Virus record (IMG/VR): IMGVR_UViG_3300025640_000055
Location: 1-23,334 of that record
DNA length: 23,334 nt
From: a virus
Reading direction: 5' to 3' (one strand)
This document shows, piece after piece, positions 4,643-22,017 of this stretch. Positions within the stretch are counted from its first letter, which is position 1. Every line of letters begins with the position of its first letter. A program made the translations under genes and the position numbers. Under the pieces are notes generated by a model. The model was not told the origin of the DNA and did no database searches. It saw only the letters and a program-made list of their open reading frames with translations.

Positions 4643-5098
4643 ATGGCTTGGTCTTACGATCCAACGGATCTAAATACAACTACGGCTTCTGGTCGTCTCA
4701 ACACAGTACGACTATTGGTAGGTGATACTGATACAACTGATCAACAAGTACAAGATGAAGAAGTTACTTTCTCTCTAACTGAGAGTGGTAATAATGTCTA
4801 TTACGCTGGAGCTTGGTCTGCCAGAGCTATAGCATCTAAATACTCTAGAAAAGTTAACACAGAGCTTAGTGGAGCCTTAAAAGCTGACTACTCTGACTTA
4901 GCTAAACACTACTACTCTCTAGCAGACAACCTAGAGTACCAAGGTAAAACTTCAGGTGCTTCGGTAGGGGTACTAGCTGGTGGTATTACTAAGAGTAAAG
5001 TAGAAGCTGTAAGGCAAAACACTAACCGCATTGAAGGCTCTTTCAGAAGAGATAGATTTAAGAACCCACCAAGTTACCAATCACCTGAATACGAATAG
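4643..5098 (+). CDS. Head-tail adaptor (connector) protein, gp6-like
   Basis: A 151-residue protein in the position of the first connector (adaptor) that binds the portal ring. The N-terminal SGRLNTVRLLVGDTDTTDQQ followed by VQDEEVTFSL is the typical helix-loop-helix opening of these proteins. It is followed by a helical middle (YYAGAWSARAIASKYSRKV, DYSDLAKHYYSLADNLE), and an extended, basic and polar C-terminal tail that would thread into the portal/neck. AAGGGGA at 4628-4634 precedes ATG 4643. The next three genes complete a standard neck gene set, which supports the assignment. The exact subfamily is not certain. Confidence 0.75.
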   Translation: MAWSYDPTDLNTTTASGRLNTVRLLVGDTDTTDQQVQDEEVTFSLTESGNNVYYAGAWSARAIASKYSRKVNTELSGALKADYSDLAKHYYSLADNLEYQGKTSGASVGVLAGGITKSKVEAVRQNTNRIEGSFRRDRFKNPPSYQSPEYE

Positions 5099-5110
5099 AA
5101 GGAGTAACAT

Positions 5111-5461
5111 ATGTCTTTTAGAGCATTTGACTTACTCAAGCTAGTTGAAGATTTTGGTGAAACACTTACACTACGTAAAATTACTACGGACGGTAGCTAT
5201 AATACAACTACAGGTTCTATAGAAAACTCAGCTACGACTGACTATAGCTTTACTGGTTACTTCTATGATTACTCTAGTGCTAACCCTGAGGAAGTTATTA
5301 GAGGTGTACGTAAGTGTGTAGTACCTTATCTTGGTTCAGGTATAGACCCTTTTCCTGACGACTTAATTATAGGTAATGGTGATACAGTTAAAGTAACTAG
5401 GGCAGTATCTATATTTTCTAATGGTATCGCTATGTGTTACATATGTGATGTACAGGAGTAA
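5111..5461 (+). CDS. Head closure (stopper) protein
   Basis: A 116-residue small beta-rich protein. It contains GETLTLRKITTDGSYNTTTG, then FTGYFYDYSS, EEVIRGVRKCVVPYLGSG, DDLIIGNGDTVKVTRAVSIF and a C-terminal IAMCYICDVQE. The length, the beta pattern and the position between the adaptor and the gp10/neck-type protein match phage head closure proteins (the HK97 gp7 / SPP1 gp16 position), which plug the portal channel and receive the tail. It has AAGGAG at 5099-5104 ahead of the start. The assignment rests mainly on gene order. Confidence 0.6.
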   Translation: MSFRAFDLLKLVEDFGETLTLRKITTDGSYNTTTGSIENSATTDYSFTGYFYDYSSANPEEVIRGVRKCVVPYLGSGIDPFPDDLIIGNGDTVKVTRAVSIFSNGIAMCYICDVQE

Positions 5462-5464
5462 GAT

Positions 5465-5887
5465 ATGAAAGAAGTATTAGGCTTAAAGAAAACTATGTCC
5501 AATCTATACGGAGAAATAGATGAAGCTATAGAGTTAGGTGTAAAATATGCCTTAGAGGATATAGCTGTGTTTACTATAGACTTATCTACTCCTACAGTAG
5601 ATACTGGTGCTTATATAACATCCTTTTCCTACGGTGTTGGTGCAGGTAGACCTAGAGGTAAGTCTTCTGAAGGTAGACCTAAAGAACAAGACAAAGTATC
5701 TATGGCAACAGAAGGTCTTAACAATCTACTAAACGACATAAATAGTATACAAGACTTTAACAGGAAAGATAGTATAATTCTTAGAAATGGATCACCTCAC
5801 GCTATAGATGTAGAAGAGGGTGGACCTAACTGGAGGCTAACACAACCTTATAAGATATTTGAGACAGTAAGGAATAAATATGGCTAG
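5465..5887 (+). CDS. Neck / tail-completion protein, HK97 gp10-like
   Basis: A 140-residue protein with an alpha-helical N-terminus (LKKTMSNLYGEIDEAIELGV, KYALEDIAVFTIDLS), a TPTVDTGAYITSFSYGVG stretch typical of gp10-like proteins ('P.DTG.L..S'), and NGSPHAIDVEEGGPNW near the C-terminus, corresponding to the 'N..PYA..VE.G' motif of that family. It would form part of the neck at the head-tail interface. It begins 3 nt after the preceding stop and overlaps the tail terminator gene by 8 nt. Confidence 0.7.
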   Translation: MKEVLGLKKTMSNLYGEIDEAIELGVKYALEDIAVFTIDLSTPTVDTGAYITSFSYGVGAGRPRGKSSEGRPKEQDKVSMATEGLNNLLNDINSIQDFNRKDSIILRNGSPHAIDVEEGGPNWRLTQPYKIFETVRNKYG

Positions 5888-13008: not shown

Positions 13009-13650
13009 ATGTCAAGAGATTTAATACCCGATACTATACAAAGTATCTCACAAGATGTTGTTAGACCCTTCTTCGCTGTAGAGCTAAAGTTTGATGGAGA
13101 GAACACACTAAGAATGTGGACTGGTCAAGGAACTCTTATATTAGCAGATGGAACTGAGTGGGTAGGAGCAGGAGACTTACTTAACATATCCACAATAGAA
13201 GAAACATCTGAGATGGCTGTTAAGGGTGCTACTGTAACTTTAAACGGCATACCTAGTAATGTCATTTCACTAGCTCTTGGTCAACCATATCAAGGTCGTG
13301 TATGTAATATATACTTTGGTACATTTACAGTTTCTGATGGAAGTTTACTACAAGAAGACAGCTCTTACATACTACTAGAAGACGGATCTAAAATTATCTT
13401 ACAGGGTAGCTCAAACCAATTTAATGAGATATTCTCAGGTTACATGGACCAAATGAATATACAAGAAGAAGCTGAAACTTCCTCTGTAGAGCTTACAGTA
13501 GAGAATAAGTTAGTTGATCTTGAGAGAGCTAGAGTAGCTAGATTTACATCTGGTTATCAGAAGTCTCTTTACGAGAACGATCAAGGGTTTGACTTTGTAG
13601 AGAGTATGCAAGATAAGCAAGTGTCTTGGGGACGTAAGAGTGGTAATTAA
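13009..13650 (+). CDS. Minor tail / hub protein, DUF2163-like
   Basis: A 213-residue protein with the sequence pattern of DUF2163-type tail hub proteins: RPFFAVELKFDG, LRMWTGQGTLILADGTEWVG, AGDLLNISTIEETSEMAVKG, TVTLNGIPSNVISLALGQPY, QGRVCNIYFGTF, then a repeat-like insert (LLQEDSSYILLEDGSKIILQ) and FSGYMDQMNI. It ends with GFDFVESMQDKQVSWGRKSG, the usual short ending. It would connect the distal tail ring to the tip complex. AAAAGG precedes ATG 13009. The last 11 nt overlap the GNAT gene. Confidence 0.75.
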   Translation: MSRDLIPDTIQSISQDVVRPFFAVELKFDGENTLRMWTGQGTLILADGTEWVGAGDLLNISTIEETSEMAVKGATVTLNGIPSNVISLALGQPYQGRVCNIYFGTFTVSDGSLLQEDSSYILLEDGSKIILQGSSNQFNEIFSGYMDQMNIQEEAETSSVELTVENKLVDLERARVARFTSGYQKSLYENDQGFDFVESMQDKQVSWGRKSGN

Positions 13651-14086
13651 GTATCAGCAAGAAGTTTTAAGTCTTGCTCAAGATGAAGTAGCACCACTAG
13701 CTATACTAGAGTGGAGTGAATCTGGTCATCCTACAATAGAATTAGATATAGACTGGGAATCATACTTTATATTAGAACAACAAGGCAAACTAAAGTTCTT
13801 TACTGTTAGAAAAGAAGGGCTACTGATTGGTTACTTTCTAGTTGTAGTAGTAGCCCCCTTAACAACTAAAGGAGATCTTATGGGTTGTTATGACGCAGTA
13901 TATGTACACAAAGACTACAGAAAATCTACAGTTGGTAAACGCCTGTTTAAGTTTGTAGAGATGTGTTTGAAAGAGGATGGTATCACTAGAGTTATGGCCT
14001 CATCTTCTAAGAAGAACCCTATTGGAAACTTCCTTACACGCATGGGATACCATGAAGTAGAAACTAAATACGAGAAGGAGTTATAA
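13640..14086 (+). CDS. GNAT-family N-acetyltransferase in the tail-tip locus
   Basis: A 148-residue protein starting at GTG 13640 inside the end of the hub gene. The GNAT fold is visible: hydrophobic strands (LKFFTVRKEGLLIGYFLVVV) followed by YDAVYVHKDYRKSTVGKRLF, where R-x-x-x-x-G-K matches the acetyl-CoA pyrophosphate loop of motif A, then KFVEMCLKEDGITRVMASSS and the C-terminal FLTRMGYHEVETKY typical of motif B. It would transfer an acetyl group from acetyl-CoA to an unknown amine, on a virion protein or host target. In lambda-like phages this position holds an NlpC/P60-type tail peptidase; here the acetyltransferase stands in that place. Similar tail-associated GNATs occur in other phages, so it is not unique. 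Confidence 0.85.
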   Translation: MVIKYQQEVLSLAQDEVAPLAILEWSESGHPTIELDIDWESYFILEQQGKLKFFTVRKEGLLIGYFLVVVVAPLTTKGDLMGCYDAVYVHKDYRKSTVGKRLFKFVEMCLKEDGITRVMASSSKKNPIGNFLTRMGYHEVETKYEKEL

Positions 14087-16798: not shown

Positions 16799-17476
16799 AT
16801 GTCACAGAACGATTTAAGTATCGCTAATCAAACCTTCCCTAGTTTTAGGTCAGATTTAAATAATGCACTACAAGCATTAGGTAGTTTAAGTAGCGGTAGT
16901 TCTGCTCCTACTACTACTTACGCTAATATGCTTTGGTATGATACCTCAGCTAATATATTAAAAGTTAGATCTGAAGCAGATGATGCTTGGATTAATATGG
17001 GTTATTTAGACCAGTCTACTAACTTGTTTAAAATATTAGATGATACTATAGTAACAAATACATCTGGTGTTCAAACAGGGTTGCTAGGAACTCAGGCTAC
17101 TAACGTATGGCAGACTGGAACAGGTACTACAGAGAGTTTAGTTTCACCAGCTAAACTTAAAGCGGCTACACAAGGTACATCTAGTTTAAGTGAGAGTGGA
17201 TATCAAACATTTCCATCAGGTTTGTACATGCAGTGGGGGAGAGTTACAGGTGTAAACGCGGCACAGAATAAGACAGTGACTTTACCTATTGCTTTTCCTA
17301 ATAACTTTTGGGTTGTTAATGCTACACCTATGGATAACAGGGCATCAGGGGACTTTGAAGTTGACTATTATTCTGTAGCTTGTCTTCCAGTAAACTTAAG
17401 TACTTTTACAATAATCAACGAAGGTACTTCCTCTGGTAATAATCAAACTATGATGTACCAAGCTATAGGAAACTAG
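16799..17476 (+). CDS. Second tail fibre protein with gp53-like C-terminal domain
   Basis: A 225-residue fibre. The N-terminal attachment part reads IANQTFPSFRSDLNNALQAL, then APTTTYANMLWYDTSANILK and AWINMGYL, a pattern common at the start of short phage fibres. The C-terminal part is a gp53-like domain: GYQTFPSGLYMQWGRVTG, KTVTLPIAFPNNFWVVNATP and a final aromatic strand with MMYQAIGN, where YQAIG corresponds to the usual 'w.AiG' end. These domains normally carry the carbohydrate-binding tip. It begins 2 nt after the J-like gene stop, with GAGGAAT upstream. Together with the 11201 fibre it gives the particle at least two candidate receptor-binding proteins. Confidence 0.8.
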   Translation: MSQNDLSIANQTFPSFRSDLNNALQALGSLSSGSSAPTTTYANMLWYDTSANILKVRSEADDAWINMGYLDQSTNLFKILDDTIVTNTSGVQTGLLGTQATNVWQTGTGTTESLVSPAKLKAATQGTSSLSESGYQTFPSGLYMQWGRVTGVNAAQNKTVTLPIAFPNNFWVVNATPMDNRASGDFEVDYYSVACLPVNLSTFTIINEGTSSGNNQTMMYQAIGN

Positions 17477-17479
17477 ATA

Positions 17480-17704
17480 ATGGAGATAACTGATCTATGG
17501 AGTAGTGTCTTAACACTAGGCGTTGGTTTTATTGGTTTTATACTACGTGGTTACGTGGTTGAAATGCAAAGGCTACAGATCTTATTAAATCGTACTAGAG
17601 AAGAGTATGTTACAAAAGTTGAATCTACTCAGGTTCTCAGTCAGATAATGGGTAAGTTTGACAGGATAGAACAAAAGATAGATAGACTTGTGGAGAGAAA
17701 ATGA
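17480..17704 (+). CDS. Small membrane-anchored coiled-coil protein
   Basis: A 74-residue protein with one N-terminal membrane segment (about residues 8-25, SVLTLGVGFIGFILRGYVV) and a charged amphipathic C-terminal helix (EESTQ-like heptads, MGKFDRIEQKIDRLVERK) predicted to form a coiled coil. I do not recognise a family. Similar small proteins are common near phage lysis genes. It could be part of a membrane complex with the exported proteins that follow, or a small inner-membrane spanin-like protein, although it is short for that. Its stop overlaps the next start as ATGA, so expression is coupled to the exported cassette. Confidence 0.65.
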   Translation: MEITDLWSSVLTLGVGFIGFILRGYVVEMQRLQILLNRTREEYVTKVESTQVLSQIMGKFDRIEQKIDRLVERK

Positions 17705-18249
17705 AACCCCTACTTATACTACTTACCCTACTAATCAGTAGCCCTGCATTTGCTGATGACGACATAATCAAGTCAGAGAGTACAGTAATATCGGACGGAA
17801 AGATGGACACAACCATCAACAGTCCACCACCCTCTGCAATTTCCCCACAAATTAGCGCAAGTAACAGTGACTTATGTACTGTAGGTGTTGCTGGTGCAGT
17901 ACAAACACAGATACTTGGTATTTCTGCTGGTCGTACTGTAAGAGATATGAACTGTGAGAAGTTAAAGAACGCTAAGACTATGTACGATATGGGAATGAAA
18001 GTAGCCGCAGTATCTATTATGTGTCAGGACGAAAGGGTGTTTGATGCGATGCTTAACGCTGGAACTCCCTGTCCTAAGGATGGGTTGGTGGGAGATAAGG
18101 CTAGGCTTGCTTGGGAGATGGAAGCTGTAGAAGAAGAGATCGAAAGAGATCAAAACAATGTAATCAAAAGGATGTTCGATGAGAATGGTGAAACAAAGAT
18201 TGGGTTGGGTGTTATTCTTAGTAGCCTTGCCTTCCTATTGTTACTCTGA
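17701..18249 (+). CDS. Exported protein with C-terminal membrane anchor, unknown function
   Basis: A 182-residue protein with a Sec signal peptide (MKPLLILLTLLISSPAFA, likely cut after Ala18), a disordered Ser/Pro linker (SPPPSAISPQIS), and a compact domain: SDLCTVGVAGAVQTQILGIS, AGRTVRDMNCEKLKNAKTMY, DMGMKVAAVSIMCQDERVFD, then GTPCPKDG. The four conserved-looking Cys could form disulphides in the periplasm. A hydrophobic end (GLGVILSSLAFLLLL, about 168-182) would anchor it in the inner membrane, leaving almost no cytoplasmic tail. I remember this SPPPSAIS/CTVGV family from many marine phages, always uncharacterised. There is no lipobox, so it is not a standard unimolecular spanin. The last 71 nt also encode the next protein's signal peptide. 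Confidence 0.8.
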   Translation: MKPLLILLTLLISSPAFADDDIIKSESTVISDGKMDTTINSPPPSAISPQISASNSDLCTVGVAGAVQTQILGISAGRTVRDMNCEKLKNAKTMYDMGMKVAAVSIMCQDERVFDAMLNAGTPCPKDGLVGDKARLAWEMEAVEEEIERDQNNVIKRMFDENGETKIGLGVILSSLAFLLLL

Positions 18250-19051
18250 GCCATACTACTACGGAGCTACAGGTAATGCGGCATCTACATCATTAAGTTG
18301 GGGTATGCCTTCTGTGTTACCTGATGTTGCAGGTTTAGACATTAATGGGTTACTATACAGGTATACTACAGTAAAGAACCCTGAAGATGCTATGAAGGTT
18401 CATATTGGCAACCACAATGCTACTGGTGATGGCTACACGTTTAGAGAGACAGACGACTGGTCAGGTGTTCCTAGTAATACTATAGTTAAGTCTTTTGCAT
18501 TGTCTAATATTCCTTCAGCTAATTGGGGTACTGGTTTTATTGAAGTTGAGGGTGAAGGTACTGTAGAAGATGCTAGTGTTATATATAGTTACAGAGTTGA
18601 CAGGTGTTACGATCCACAGTCTGATCCATCATGTGCAGGATACATTAAACCTATACCTGATATACCCGAAGTAGAAATATATGATGCTTTAGAAGATGAG
18701 TCTGTACTTAATGCTATAGACGATGACACAGAGTTTAAGTATGATAAAGATGGTAATCGTATAGACGATGATGAAGAGGAAGAGGATAACACACGTATTG
18801 AGATGGGTCTAACAGCTTCAGCTAATGCGTTAACTCTATTTAAGACACAAGGTCAAGATACTATTATCATGGCAATAAACCAACAGACTAATATCAATAT
18901 GTATTACAACGCAAAGATCAATGGTGGTACACTTAGTGATGCCGCAGGTTTAAAAGATAGTACAATACCTGATAACAAGAAAGCCTTACGTAATAATTTA
19001 GCACAACAAATACTGCATGAGCAAATGATAGACATGCAATATAATAAATGA
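18179..19051 (+). CDS. Secreted protein with acidic calcium-loop-like segment, unknown function
   Basis: A 290-residue protein. ATG 18179 is chosen because AAGGA lies 6 nt upstream (18168-18172) and because it gives a good signal peptide (KQRLGWVLFLVALPSYCYS, cut after Ser23). The mature N-terminal half is aromatic and beta-rich (EPYYYGATGNAASTSLSWGM, PDVAGLDINGLLYRYT, NWGTGFIEVEGEGTVEDASV, IYSYRVDRC). A Cys pair flanks DPQSDPS. Residues about 180-206 are very acidic and include DKDGNRIDDDEE (189-200), which resembles a calcium-binding loop, with Asp at 1, 3 and 9, Asn at 5 and Glu at 12. The C-terminal third is helical (TRIEMGLTASANALTLFKTQ, NLAQQILHEQMIDMQ). Family remembered from marine phages next to the previous gene; function unknown. 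Confidence 0.75.
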   Translation: MRMVKQRLGWVLFLVALPSYCYSEPYYYGATGNAASTSLSWGMPSVLPDVAGLDINGLLYRYTTVKNPEDAMKVHIGNHNATGDGYTFRETDDWSGVPSNTIVKSFALSNIPSANWGTGFIEVEGEGTVEDASVIYSYRVDRCYDPQSDPSCAGYIKPIPDIPEVEIYDALEDESVLNAIDDDTEFKYDKDGNRIDDDEEEEDNTRIEMGLTASANALTLFKTQGQDTIIMAINQQTNINMYYNAKINGGTLSDAAGLKDSTIPDNKKALRNNLAQQILHEQMIDMQYNK

Positions 19052-19059
19052 GGATTACA

Positions 19060-19548
19060 ATGAAATATTCAATAGCAATACTTTCACTCTTAGCATTACC
19101 AGCATACGCTGATGTAGATATTACAGGTAATGTAGAAGCTAAGTGTGTCATTCAAACAACAAAGAGTGGTGTGTATGGCAATCCAATAGCCAGCAAGTTA
19201 AGTACTACCCCTGCTGATGGTGGTGTTCTACCAGTAATCAGATTTGATGTAGCATTAGCTAACTACTACACAGCTAACATTACACATCCAACATCCTTTA
19301 GTTCTTCTCCAGCCTTAACTGATACAGTAGCATGGACAGGTAGTACTAGTGTTACACAAACAAGTGATGCAGGTATGTCAGGCTACGATGCCGCTAAGGT
19401 TGTATACGACAACACTACAGTCTTTGATTTAACGGTTGCAGGTTCTACATGGTTCTCTACAGCTTCTAGTGCTACTTATGCCGCATCAAAACCTTTCGTC
19501 GGAGGGGTCTATACCGCAGTGGTACAGGCTAGTTGTATTGCTAAGTAG
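19060..19548 (+). CDS. Small secreted beta-rich protein, pilin-like in appearance
   Basis: A 162-residue protein from ATG 19060, preceded by TGAGGA at spacing 5-6; an ATG at 19048 overlapping the previous stop is an alternative and adds four residues. The signal peptide MKYSIAILSLLALPAYA is cut after Ala17. The mature protein is beta-prone with one Cys near each end (C29 in VEAKCVIQ, C159 in ASCIAK), GVYGNPIASKL, GGVLPVIRFDVALANYYTAN, and a final GGVYTAVVQASC strand. A Cys near the N-terminus and a closing beta strand are seen in pilin-like and DUF4402-like secreted proteins, but I do not claim homology. The gene overlaps the following TTG start. Confidence 0.7.
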   Translation: MKYSIAILSLLALPAYADVDITGNVEAKCVIQTTKSGVYGNPIASKLSTTPADGGVLPVIRFDVALANYYTANITHPTSFSSSPALTDTVAWTGSTSVTQTSDAGMSGYDAAKVVYDNTTVFDLTVAGSTWFSTASSATYAASKPFVGGVYTAVVQASCIAK

Positions 19549-19924
19549 ATTAACAGTACTTTTTCTACTGTGGGCATTTTCTACTACAGGGCATGAGATG
19601 ACACCAGCTTACCCAGTTGTTAAACCATCTCATGTTACTGGTGTAGTTAAGGTTGATATGTCTCTGTTTAATTCAAGAGAAGAGATCAAGTATTATGAGA
19701 TAGGTGTGTACGACTTAAACTGGAAGAGCATACCTTTCTCTGCAACATACAGAATTATTAAAGTAGGATATAAAACCCGTAAGAATTTCAGCGTATACAT
19801 TCGTAAGTCCGATATGGATGAAGCTACCTATGTATGCACAACCTCTAAAGTTAAAAGGCAACTCGAATCAAAAACCTTAGTATCTTCTAGGATTTGTTCT
19901 CGACTTGATGGTATGCCAGCATGA
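19538..19924 (+). CDS. Probable exported protein, possibly periplasmic-chaperone-like
   Basis: 128 residues from TTG 19538, which overlaps the preceding gene by 11 nt and yields a signal-like N-terminus (LSRLTVLFLLWAFSTTG). The frame is open further upstream to 19436, but that would lie within the previous gene and lose the signal sequence position. ATG 19598 with AGGG six nt upstream is an alternative giving a 108-residue protein without signal. The body reads MTPAYPVVKPSHVTGVVKVD, SLFNSREEIKYYEIGVYDLN, WKSIPFSATYRIIKVGYKTR, KNFSVYIRKSDMDEATYVC, then SRICSR. Edge-strand patterns and a basic Arg/Lys before 'FSVYI' recall the immunoglobulin-like first domain of PapD-type chaperones; this is a weak inference. 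Confidence 0.6.
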   Translation: MLSRLTVLFLLWAFSTTGHEMTPAYPVVKPSHVTGVVKVDMSLFNSREEIKYYEIGVYDLNWKSIPFSATYRIIKVGYKTRKNFSVYIRKSDMDEATYVCTTSKVKRQLESKTLVSSRICSRLDGMPA

Positions 19925-20316
19925 GATTAACAGCACTTCTATGTATTTTATCTAGCTCTGCTTTTGCGGAGAGTAGTTCACTCGCTTTGTCGTTACCTAG
20001 TCCACCAATGAATTATCAATCAGATAGTTTCTCTGCAAACAATTTACGTTGTAGTAATGCTGTAGGTGGTGGTATAAACCTTGAGTATGGTGTAACTGGT
20101 GTACTGTCTAGCTTCGACACTGCAAATAGAGATAAAGACATAGGTGTGTATGCACGTATAGTTATACCTTTAGATAGACCTAAGTCTCGTATAAACTGTA
20201 ATGACTTGTATCAAGTAGAACTTGCACAACGTAGGTTAGAGATACAGAAACTAAGAGATGAGTTGGACGCACTAAAGAACTTACAATCTGACAACAACAT
20301 GGACTTTGAAAACTAA
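19921..20316 (+). CDS. Exported protein with C-terminal coiled coil, unknown function
   Basis: A 131-residue protein whose ATG overlaps the previous stop (ATGA). Signal peptide MRLTALLCILSSSAFA is cut after Ala16; the Cys at position 8 lies inside the hydrophobic core and is not a lipobox. The mature part contains PSPPMNYQSDSFSANNLRCS, NAVGGGINLEYGVTGVL, RDKDIGVYARIVIPLDRPKS and RINCNDLY, so a small beta domain with two Cys likely bonded. It ends in a predicted coiled coil (VELAQRRLEIQKLRDELDAL, about residues 99-118). I recall this family too from phage late regions, again with no function. The start of the next gene overlaps its stop by one base. Confidence 0.75.
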   Translation: MRLTALLCILSSSAFAESSSLALSLPSPPMNYQSDSFSANNLRCSNAVGGGINLEYGVTGVLSSFDTANRDKDIGVYARIVIPLDRPKSRINCNDLYQVELAQRRLEIQKLRDELDALKNLQSDNNMDFEN

Positions 20317-20816
20317 TGGTAGATCTCACAGAATTTGATAACCTTGCAGATAAACAGATTAAAGCTGGTAATGTTAAGATGTCTTTTGCATCTGTGTTAG
20401 CAATCATAACCTTTATTTCCACTGTGGTTGCTGGATTGTATGGTGGGTTTGTTATGTATCAAAAGATTGAGGAAGTTGCTGGACTAGACTTAAGTGCTTA
20501 TCAACAACAGATGGATGTAATGGATGCTAAGGTATCTGGTATATCTGATAAGGTTGAAGAAAGCGTAGAATACACTAGAGATATTAAGAATGGACTTAAA
20601 GATGATCTGTTACGCATAGAACAACAGACAGATAGAGTAGAAGACATGGTACGTGACAATGAAGACAAGGTACGTAAGATGATTGATGATGCTGAAGTTC
20701 GCTTTGAGAACCAGAGAGAACGTGTAAGAGTGTCACAGAGTGGTTCTATGAAAGAGTTAGAAACTAAACTAATGGATAAACTGCAAAGGGCGTTAGATAA
20801 CCCTCTCGCTGACTAG
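20316..20816 (+). CDS. Membrane protein with long coiled coil
   Basis: A 166-residue protein with one membrane segment at about residues 23-48 (MSFASVLAIITFISTVVAGL, YGGFVMY) followed by a roughly 110-residue helical, highly charged coiled coil (MDAKVSGISDKVEESVEYTR, LLRIEQQTDRVEDMVRDNED, MKELETKLMDKLQRALDN). The topology is not certain: the 22-residue leading part is neutral to acidic with a Lys pair near the membrane. It could be an inner-membrane spanin-like subunit, since it lies just before the holin and lysin genes, but I find no outer-membrane lipoprotein partner. It could equally act with the exported cassette. No family is recognised. Confidence 0.7.
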   Translation: MVDLTEFDNLADKQIKAGNVKMSFASVLAIITFISTVVAGLYGGFVMYQKIEEVAGLDLSAYQQQMDVMDAKVSGISDKVEESVEYTRDIKNGLKDDLLRIEQQTDRVEDMVRDNEDKVRKMIDDAEVRFENQRERVRVSQSGSMKELETKLMDKLQRALDNPLAD

Positions 20817-20825
20817 GAGATTAGA

Positions 20826-21143
20826 ATGAGTGAATTTGAAAAAGCAGACTTAGATGGTAATGGTTCAGTAGATAAGTCTGAATGGGATGCTTTACTATTA
20901 GACGACAAAAGGATGCAGATAGAGGATGAAAACTCTAAGAGAGATCAACAACGTAAGATGGTTTGGTTCTCGTTAGCAGGTCTATTACTCTATCCTGTTA
21001 TGATTATTATATGTAACTTACTAGGACAAGAAGTTGCGGCAAACAACCTAACTGCTATTGCTCCTACATACTGTATCGCAGTTGTTGGTATCGTTACTGC
21101 CTTCTTTGGTTTTACTAATATTAAGAAGAAGGATGACTACTGA
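20826..21143 (+). CDS. EF-hand membrane protein, holin-like
   Basis: A 105-residue protein with a canonical EF-hand loop at residues 8-19, DLDGNGSVDKSE: Asp at 1, 3 and 9, Asn at 5, Gly at 6, Val at 8 and Glu at 12, all in the calcium-ligand pattern. A charged helix follows (KRMQIEDENSKRDQQRKM), then two membrane segments at about 45-68 (MVWFSLAGLLLYPVMIIICN) and 75-99 (LTAIAPTYCIAVVGIVTAFF), and a basic end IKKKDDY. Size, two membrane helices, basic C-terminus and location just before a holin-like gene and the endolysin suggest a holin or holin regulator. The EF-hand would be cytoplasmic if the positive-inside rule holds. AGGAGA lies five nt before ATG 20826. Confidence 0.75.
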   Translation: MSEFEKADLDGNGSVDKSEWDALLLDDKRMQIEDENSKRDQQRKMVWFSLAGLLLYPVMIIICNLLGQEVAANNLTAIAPTYCIAVVGIVTAFFGFTNIKKKDDY

Positions 21144-21499
21144 TGTTAGGATTAAACTTAATAGGTCAAGTAGCTAATTTAGCTGGTACTATGATCGAAG
21201 GTAAGACTGCTGTAAAGAAAGCAGAAGCTGAGACTAAGATGAAGATCGCTACAGGTGAAATAGACTGGGACATAGCCGCTATGAAGGCTACAGAGAATAG
21301 TTGGAAGGATGAGTGGATTACACTTTTGTTCAGTATTCCTCTAATACTAGCTTTTTGTGGGGACTGGGGTAATCAGATAGTGCAAGCAGGTTTCACTGCA
21401 CTAGAGATTATGCCTGACTGGTATCAGTATTCCCTCGGTGGTATTGTAAGTGCTAGTATTGGTATGCGTGGTGTAAGTAAATACTTTGGGAAGAAATAA
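21143..21499 (+). CDS. Putative holin, GTA_holin_3TM-like
   Basis: A 118-residue protein that would permeabilise the inner membrane to release the endolysin. A charged amphipathic N-terminal region (VKKAEAETKMKIATGEIDWD) is followed by AAMKATENSWKDEWITLLFS, the 'SWKDE...' signature of gene-transfer-agent-type three-TM holins, then IPLILAFCGDW and a second membrane segment (YSLGGIVSASIGMRGVSKYF). Two clear membrane helices are visible, with a shorter hydrophobic segment at the N-terminus as a possible third. It starts within the preceding stop (TGATG) and lies 2 nt before the endolysin gene, a classical holin-lysin pair. Confidence 0.8.
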   Translation: MLGLNLIGQVANLAGTMIEGKTAVKKAEAETKMKIATGEIDWDIAAMKATENSWKDEWITLLFSIPLILAFCGDWGNQIVQAGFTALEIMPDWYQYSLGGIVSASIGMRGVSKYFGKK

Positions 21500-21501
21500 A
21501 C

Positions 21502-22017
21502 ATGAAGAACAACTTTGATAAATGCCTACATATGTTATTGGAACACGAAGGGGGCTACGTAAATAATAAACACGACAAAGGTGGTATGACTAATTTAGGT
21601 GTCACTAAGAGAGTATACGACGAATGGATTGGTAGAGAGTCTACTGAACAAGAGATGAGAGACTTAACTCCAGATGATGTAGCTCCTATTTACAAGAAGA
21701 ACTACTGGGATCGAGTTAAAGGGGATTACGTTCCTTCTGGGGTCGATTGGTGCCTTTATGATTGGTGTGTAAATTCTGGTTCGAAGAGACCTGCTAAAGC
21801 TGTACAACGTGCAGTAGGAGCGACACCTGATGGTGTTATAGGTAAACAGACTGTAGGTCTTATAATGGAGAAAGATCCTAAGTTTATAATAGACTATGTA
21901 TACACAGTAAGACAAGCCTTCTATGAAGGACTAGATGACTACAAACACTTTGGTAGAGGGTGGAGCAGAAGAAACACTGAGACACTTCACCAAGCTATGA
22001 AAATGGTAGAAGAGTAA
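21502..22017 (+). CDS. Endolysin, N-acetylmuramidase (GH108-type)
   Basis: A 171-residue cell-wall hydrolase that cuts peptidoglycan glycan strands after the holin opens the membrane. The GH108 signature is clear: LLEHEGGYVN with the catalytic Glu at residue 16 (EGGY), KGGMTNLGVTKRVYDEWIG, VAPIYKKNYWDRVKGD, GVDWCLYDWCVNSGSKRPAK, followed by a PG_binding_3-like second domain (AVQRAVGATPDGVIGKQTV). The length is normal for the family. There is no signal peptide, so release depends on the holin. It is the last gene of the late operon; the terminator begins 4 nt after its stop. Confidence 0.93.
   Translation: MKNNFDKCLHMLLEHEGGYVNNKHDKGGMTNLGVTKRVYDEWIGRESTEQEMRDLTPDDVAPIYKKNYWDRVKGDYVPSGVDWCLYDWCVNSGSKRPAKAVQRAVGATPDGVIGKQTVGLIMEKDPKFIIDYVYTVRQAFYEGLDDYKHFGRGWSRRNTETLHQAMKMVEE

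Follow-up and report, generated by a model that had tools for sequence, protein, structure and literature searches.

The cassette and its genes

The window analysed here is the whole of a viral DNA fragment in IMG/VR (IMGVR_UViG_3300025640_000055; 23,334 bases). Its source is a long-tailed siphophage with recognised genes for the major head protein, the tail terminator, the tape measure and the central tail fibre J. Behind a short fibre gene (16799–17476) follow the genes g01–g10 in this order, all on the plus strand. Six of these, g02–g07, form a cassette that is conserved in marine phages and is composed of two modules, A (g02–g03–g07) and B (g04–g05–g06), each of which is also found alone. 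Judged from their sequences, the products of g02–g06 are exported proteins, and that of g05 has the predicted fold of a fimbrial chaperone. We tentatively suggest that in the periplasm the products assemble into a complex that modifies the receptor or the outer membrane of the infected cell, as Llp of phage T5 does.

In module A, g02 (17701–18249) codes for a signal peptide, a low-complexity stretch, a four-cysteine domain and a C-terminal hydrophobic segment, and g03 (18179–19051) for a signal peptide, a conserved N-terminal region, an acidic linker and the conserved C-terminus LHEQM(I/V)DMQYNK. Both genes share 71 nucleotides (nt; 18179–18249), which encode the C-terminal hydrophobic segment of g02 as well as the signal peptide of g03. 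The third member, g07 (20316–20816), codes for an N-terminal membrane helix followed by ∼120 residues, likely a periplasmic coiled coil, ending in NPLAD or NPLAN. Module B lies between g03 and g07. The exported, pilin-like product of g04 (19060–19548) has the N-terminal motif V-x-I-x-G-x-V-x-x-x-C and two invariant cysteines. The gene g05 (19538–19924) starts with TTG, as do its near relatives, and codes for a protein with a predicted one-domain PapD-type chaperone fold and two invariant cysteines. The g06 protein (19921–20316) has a signal peptide, two invariant cysteines, the motifs GVYARI.IPL and RINC..LY and a helical C-terminus.

A preliminary description of the window had proposed five exported-protein genes at the positions given above for g02–g06, and we could confirm these genes, their overlaps of 71 nt (g02/g03), 11 nt (g04/g05) and 4 nt (g05/g06) and the flanking junctions, ATGA at 17701–17704 between g01 and g02 and TAATG at 20316 between g06 and g07. 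The overlap of a few nt reported between g03 and g04 depends on the start codon of g04: with the in-frame ATG at 19048 as start, both genes overlap by 4 nt (ATGA), and with the ATG at 19060 they are separated by an 8-nt gap.

Conservation of the cassette

IMG/VR was searched with g05, g03 and g06; the other three genes, g02, g04 and g07, did not serve as baits in collecting these locus sets. Each alignment query yielded at least about 580–595 confirmed contigs, and after redundancy removal there were 195 loci among the matches listed, including six annotated phage regions. As the loci were collected by similarity to cassette members, the co-occurrence of the baits is biased, and many of the contigs are fragments. 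When same-order occurrence was counted, as the preliminary description had proposed, the order g02–g03–g04–g05–g06–g07 was broken in none of the 195 non-redundant marine phage loci, and all six genes were present in every locus with enough room on both sides (68 of 68). An overlap of g02 and g03 of 62–179 nt (median 71) was found in all 155 loci measured. In these loci, as at 18179–18249 of the window, the same DNA thus codes, in two frames, for a pair of hydrophobic segments.

The assumption that the genes are conserved as a unit is borne out, as order and overlaps recur over the 195 loci more than expected by chance. The unit is, however, smaller than the seven-gene complex envisaged at the outset. 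The product of g01 (17480–17704; 74 amino acids) has an N-terminal membrane helix, a coiled coil and a weak match to PHROG 12220/462, and g01 profile matches were obtained in 52 loci compared to 166–186 loci for each of g02–g07. Thus, g01 is a frequent neighbour and no constant member of the cassette. Homologues usually occurring singly and apart had been named as an argument against a unit; modules A and B do occur separately, whereas in the 68 marine loci with room the six genes stand together. Relatives in other marine phages are annotated as hypothetical proteins wherever examined, as the preliminary description had indicated.

The genes upstream of the cassette are very varied, with 160 of 211 clusters being singletons. 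One carrier of 119 kb contains a T4-type gp23 capsid gene, and the cassette therefore crosses virion types, from the siphophage of the window to a T4-like phage.

Export of the gene products

Signal peptides were assigned by a simple rule and not by SignalP, the rule being a charged n-region, a hydrophobic core and small residues at positions −3/−1. All five window proteins g02–g06 satisfy it, and so do 90, 87, 79, 68, and 95% of the members of the families g02–g06, respectively, versus 7.4% of 652 flanking open reading frames (ORFs). The same families have 4, 2, 2, 2, and 2 conserved cysteine columns, each conserved to 98–100% over 166–186 members. Such conserved, even-numbered cysteines are expected of disulfide-bonded periplasmic proteins and are independent support for export. 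Both rule and cysteines are in agreement with the N-terminal signal peptides that had been ascribed to all five proteins. No conserved cysteine column is present in g07. Its one N-terminal membrane helix is followed by 120 residues with 41% charged residues and one proline, which would extend over ∼18 nm if helical, and an NPL-type C-terminus occurs in nearly all of the 174 members.

A chaperone-like and a pilin-like protein

Profile searches of g02–g06 against Pfam, PHROGs, and PDB gave weak or uninformative matches only. For mature g05 (110 residues, one domain), AlphaFold2 predicted a structure from 86 aligned sequences with a predicted local distance difference test score (pLDDT) of 89.4. 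When this model was compared to the PDB with Foldseek, all 13 matches at E ≤ 1e-3 were fimbrial chaperones (FaeE, PapD, SfaE, FimC, Caf1M), and so were nearly all of the next 24; the query TM-scores were 0.47–0.67 for the 13 and 0.47–0.68 for the PDB matches. Antibodies, which are far commoner immunoglobulin (Ig) folds, rank later and weaker. The invariant cysteines of g05 (99–100% conserved) fall in the last two strands of the predicted model, which look like F1 and G1, and an F1–G1 disulfide marks the FGL class of chaperones (PMC4133393). Like PapD, FimC, FaeE, and Caf1M, g05 appears to be exported, has the predicted Ig-like fold of their N-terminal domain (PF00345) and adjoins a pilin-like gene.

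Nevertheless, fimbrial chaperones have two domains (PMC4133393), and the second, C-terminal domain that forms the chaperone boomerang is absent from g05, which is moreover phage-borne. HMMER likewise detected no similarity, as Pfam PapD_N did not match any of the 86 members or the related Vibrio phage proteins (see below), and hhalign of g05 against the bacterial PapD_N alignment gave a probability of 0.1–1.9%, Vibrio forms included. On the basis of the model we regard g05 as chaperone-like in fold and not as a member of the fimbrial chaperone family. A search of predicted viral structures returned one match (E 5e-5), to an unnamed protein.

The gene next to g05 codes for a protein that may be pilin-like, a likeness weaker than that of g05 to chaperones. 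The AlphaFold2 model of mature g04 (pLDDT 92.8) has an unstructured N-terminus, and in Foldseek pilins (the PapG pilin domain, FimF, CfaB, FimG, CsuA/B) recur among weak, mixed matches to beta-proteins, the best pilin at E 7.6e-3. Somewhat like the pilins of chaperone–usher systems, the model of g04 appears to be a beta-sandwich whose unstructured N-terminal extension has hydrophobic residues in alternation and a glycine, followed by a cysteine, and whose C-terminus has a G-x-Y-x-A strand; by eye the N-terminal motif resembles bacterial pilin starts, for example, I-N-F-T-G-E-V-L-D-K-T-C. Unlike in these pilins the cysteines of g04 lie near both ends, the fold match is weak, and hhalign against bacterial pilin alignments found nothing. 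In the window and in 19 contigs of 48–119 kb, records that may be incomplete, no usher (PF00577) was found, and the E. coli positive control matched.

Separate occurrence of both modules

Module A occurs without module B in pelagiphages. Homologues of g02 are present in pelagiphages and roseophages, and in pelagiphages a large protein comes next, and after it a membrane/coil protein ending in NPLAN, NPLAG, or NPLG. Among 80 further module A loci from IMG/VR none contains g04–g06, and an ORF with an NPL-type C-terminal motif lies downstream in all 33 loci with room. In one locus (L056) and in pelagiphages the N-terminal part of g03 is exchanged for other, larger sequences, one of which is annotated as carbohydrate-binding in a pelagiphage. 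In two other loci (L021, 6640–7511; L026, 6642–7511) frame changes, from sequence error or from genuine loss, split g03 into three open pieces, and the other cassette genes look undamaged.

Module B without module A is found in Vibrio phage K251 g3. For the homologues of each of the first two genes of this module there are 179 Vibrio phage records, some from cultured hosts, and the carriers include Queuovirinae, T5-like Demerecviridae (Brizo, VPT02), and siphophages of 80 kb. These relatives were reached through a g06 match and synteny, and the Vibrio homologue of g06 is in the locus L060; tblastn of g03, g04, and g05 of the window against phage records gave no match. By hhalign the Vibrio forms are related to the window families with E values of 2.9e-6 for g05 and 5e-9 for g04. 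Each of the eight Vibrio loci inspected has the module B trio behind a pair of homologous fibre-like genes and ahead of a small lipoprotein gene, and the remaining genome context differs. In the T5-like Vibrio phages the next annotated genes code for a holin and an M15 peptidase (endolysin). The lipoprotein is conserved and its mature form starts with C-T-(I/F)-N (L385, 9649–9852; L387, 7634–7819; L060, 6197–6403; other Vibrio loci). Viral contigs scanned with the Vibrio chaperone-like protein gave no match, and a genome scan with query A1 returned four contigs in two bins only, likely phage fragments.

Possible function of the cassette

The cassette probably acts late in infection, by a change in the envelope of the host cell. 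We suggest that the products of this late operon are exported by Sec to the periplasm and would build one envelope complex there. The PapD-like g05 might hold and fold the pilin-like g04 by strand lending, as fimbrial chaperones do, and g06 and g03 might join the g04/g05 assembly. The assembly would be tethered to the inner membrane by g02 and g07, and the coil of the latter, if fully helical, would be long enough for the outer membrane. From the periplasmic side such a complex could modify some component of the infected cell's outer membrane; most likely it would serve to block or mask a receptor, so that superinfecting phages are excluded and the progeny is kept off debris. In the Vibrio phages the small lipoprotein beside module B may provide the outer-membrane contact. 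Gene order, modularity, export as judged by rule and cysteines, the predicted g05 fold and the lack of an usher in the records searched are what the analysis shows; that the proteins form a complex, complement each other by a strand and have the topology, target, and purpose given above, and hence every functional step of this proposal, is inferred.

The model for this proposal is the lipoprotein Llp of T5, whose gene adjoins that of the receptor-binding protein and which binds FhuA from the periplasm and excludes superinfection (PMC9586334). The layout of the Vibrio loci, seen in several lineages, recalls this arrangement and the exclusion lipoprotein Cor of T1 and phi80: a small lipoprotein and exported, cysteine-paired proteins are encoded right behind fibre-like genes. 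In addition, a complex that works on a receptor from within the periplasm can do without an usher; the chief obstacle to reading the genes as a pilus system then falls away. Several points weigh against receptor masking. Unlike the situation with Llp and Cor, the cassette neither contains nor adjoins a lipoprotein gene in the window and in most relatives. Fibre genes lie just upstream of the six-gene group in part of the loci only; among the 47 ORFs lying closest upstream, 11 have their match in a single tail-protein family and others in tail fibres. The likeness of g05 to chaperones is one of fold only, as hhalign against bacterial PapD_N finds nothing, and the signal-peptide calls rest on a simple rule. 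Furthermore, superinfection exclusion usually takes one small protein and not six.

The preliminary description had considered envelope disruption at lysis, and this would be a possible though less likely alternative: a trans-envelope complex, with g07 and g02 in the inner membrane and g03, g04, and g06 towards the outer membrane, would break or weaken the latter as a substitute or helper of spanins. Within 3.5 kb downstream of the cassette an endolysin gene is present in 29 of 60 loci and any lysis-type gene in 37, counts based on clusters to which names were given from a few of their sequences, and the g02 homologues of roseophages and pelagiphages lie near lysozyme or holin-type genes. By hydropathy and composition g07 shows the architecture of an i-spanin, an N-terminal transmembrane segment and a periplasmic coil, and some loci carry class 3 lipase genes in or after the cassette. 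Recognisable spanins are present in 586 of 677 Gram-negative phages, and for the 91 others different topologies have been proposed (PMC6139136). Unlike spanins such as Rz/Rz1 and gp11, the cassette has no lipobox partner: the window contains no lipobox ORF, lipobox-like sequences occur in 0–9 members per cassette family, and few loci have a lipoprotein gene nearby, a scarcity that counts for the lysis reading. Against it, 23 of the 60 loci have no close lysis-type gene, six genes are many for a task of one or two, and module B of the Vibrio phages has no inner-membrane parts. A plain spanin cassette was our first idea and was dropped once Rz-like spanin genes were found beside the cassette, upstream of it, in three relatives (L044, L048, L224); this coexistence disfavours a plain spanin role and leaves other roles in lysis. 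Near the cassette in two further loci (L256, L234) u-spanin-like lipoproteins with a C-terminal membrane segment are encoded.

A surface structure, also considered early, appears improbable. In this case g04 would polymerise with the help of g05, g03 would be the tip, and the fibre or adhesin would be displayed by infected cells or set free when they lyse. The PapD-like fold of g05, the pilin-like g04 with its donor-strand-like N-terminus and the exchangeable N-terminal parts of g03, with the carbohydrate-binding annotation, are consistent with this, and pelagimyophages carry the curli pore CsgGF, also without fibre subunits (PMC9004378). An exported pilus is however disfavoured by the lack of an usher in the window and the 19 large contigs, by the missing second domain of g05 and by the weak match of g04 to pilins. 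Least probable is a role in the virion or its fibres, in which the proteins would fold in the periplasm and be added to particles no earlier than lysis. The cassette does adjoin tail-fibre genes in the window and in the eight Vibrio loci, but all members other than g07 carry export features and the assembly of tailed-phage virions takes place in the cytoplasm; a virion proteome from a cassette carrier was not found. Weighing the clues from lysis genes, fibre neighbourhood, and spanins, we rank receptor masking and superinfection exclusion first, lysis second, a surface fibre third, and the virion last.

We know of no pilus-assembly-type chaperone from phages, and no report of a phage-encoded chaperone/pilin-like set was found in the open-access PMC literature, although such a negative does not prove that none exists. 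The closest counterpart is the CsgGF pore (pelagimyophages, Melnitz), likewise a partial bacterial fibre-export set in marine phages, for which the authors propose a role in lysis (PMC9004378); its proteins are unrelated to those of the cassette. The novelty would lie in the anatomy, a conserved exported phage cassette with a predicted chaperone fold, and not in a proven function. We judge the chances as about even that a stripped-down, usher-less pair of a chaperone and a pilin-like protein, together with a periplasm-spanning anchor, rebuilds the envelope of the infected cell, either as an exclusion machine of several proteins or as a novel outer-membrane opener, and that this system is widespread in marine phages. 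If rivals are excluded this way, it would be a multi-protein exclusion system; a role in lysis would be relevant to the unsettled question of how the outer membrane is breached by phages that lack recognisable spanins. Relatives of module B, with 179 records from Vibrio phages and hundreds of contigs from the environment, are hypothetical wherever examined, and cultured phages of Vibrio harveyi and V. campbellii make the cassette directly testable.

Neighbouring genes and further observations

Downstream of g07 the window contains g08 (20826–21143), coding for an EF-hand and two membrane segments, g09 (21143–21499), coding for a three-helix holin-type protein (PHROG 2524), and g10 (21502–22017), coding for a GH108 endolysin (Pfam PF05838, E 1.9e-28). 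GTA_holin_3TM is also present among the downstream neighbours of cassette loci. A gene of the g08 type lies within 3.5 kb of the cassette in 26 of 60 loci; it was seen in the window, L013, L055, L197, L224, and L056, in the last of these between g03 and g07. It is possible that g08 is a calcium-binding partner or regulator of the cassette.

Lipase class 3 genes without a signal peptide interrupt the cassette or come after it in some loci, with insertions between g06 and g07 (L226, L213, L207, L206, L196, L051) or downstream positions (L197, L198, L199, L200, L208, L209). Among the other inserts are nuclease-like genes and, in L213, a nuclease-like ORF with a signal-like N-terminus. Three ORFs downstream of cassette loci match HlyC of the RTX toxin acyltransferase family (best E 1.9e-20), genes which to our knowledge are unusual in phages. 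In L221 the stretch 4890–5510 looks by eye like a permuted tmRNA, which ARAGORN did not call. Behind it comes an exported ORF of small size, which ends in TFAF and has the look of an outer-membrane barrel. In the window a gene for a GNAT-type acetyltransferase (13640–14086; phrog_1249) lies between two tail genes just ahead of the central fibre J.

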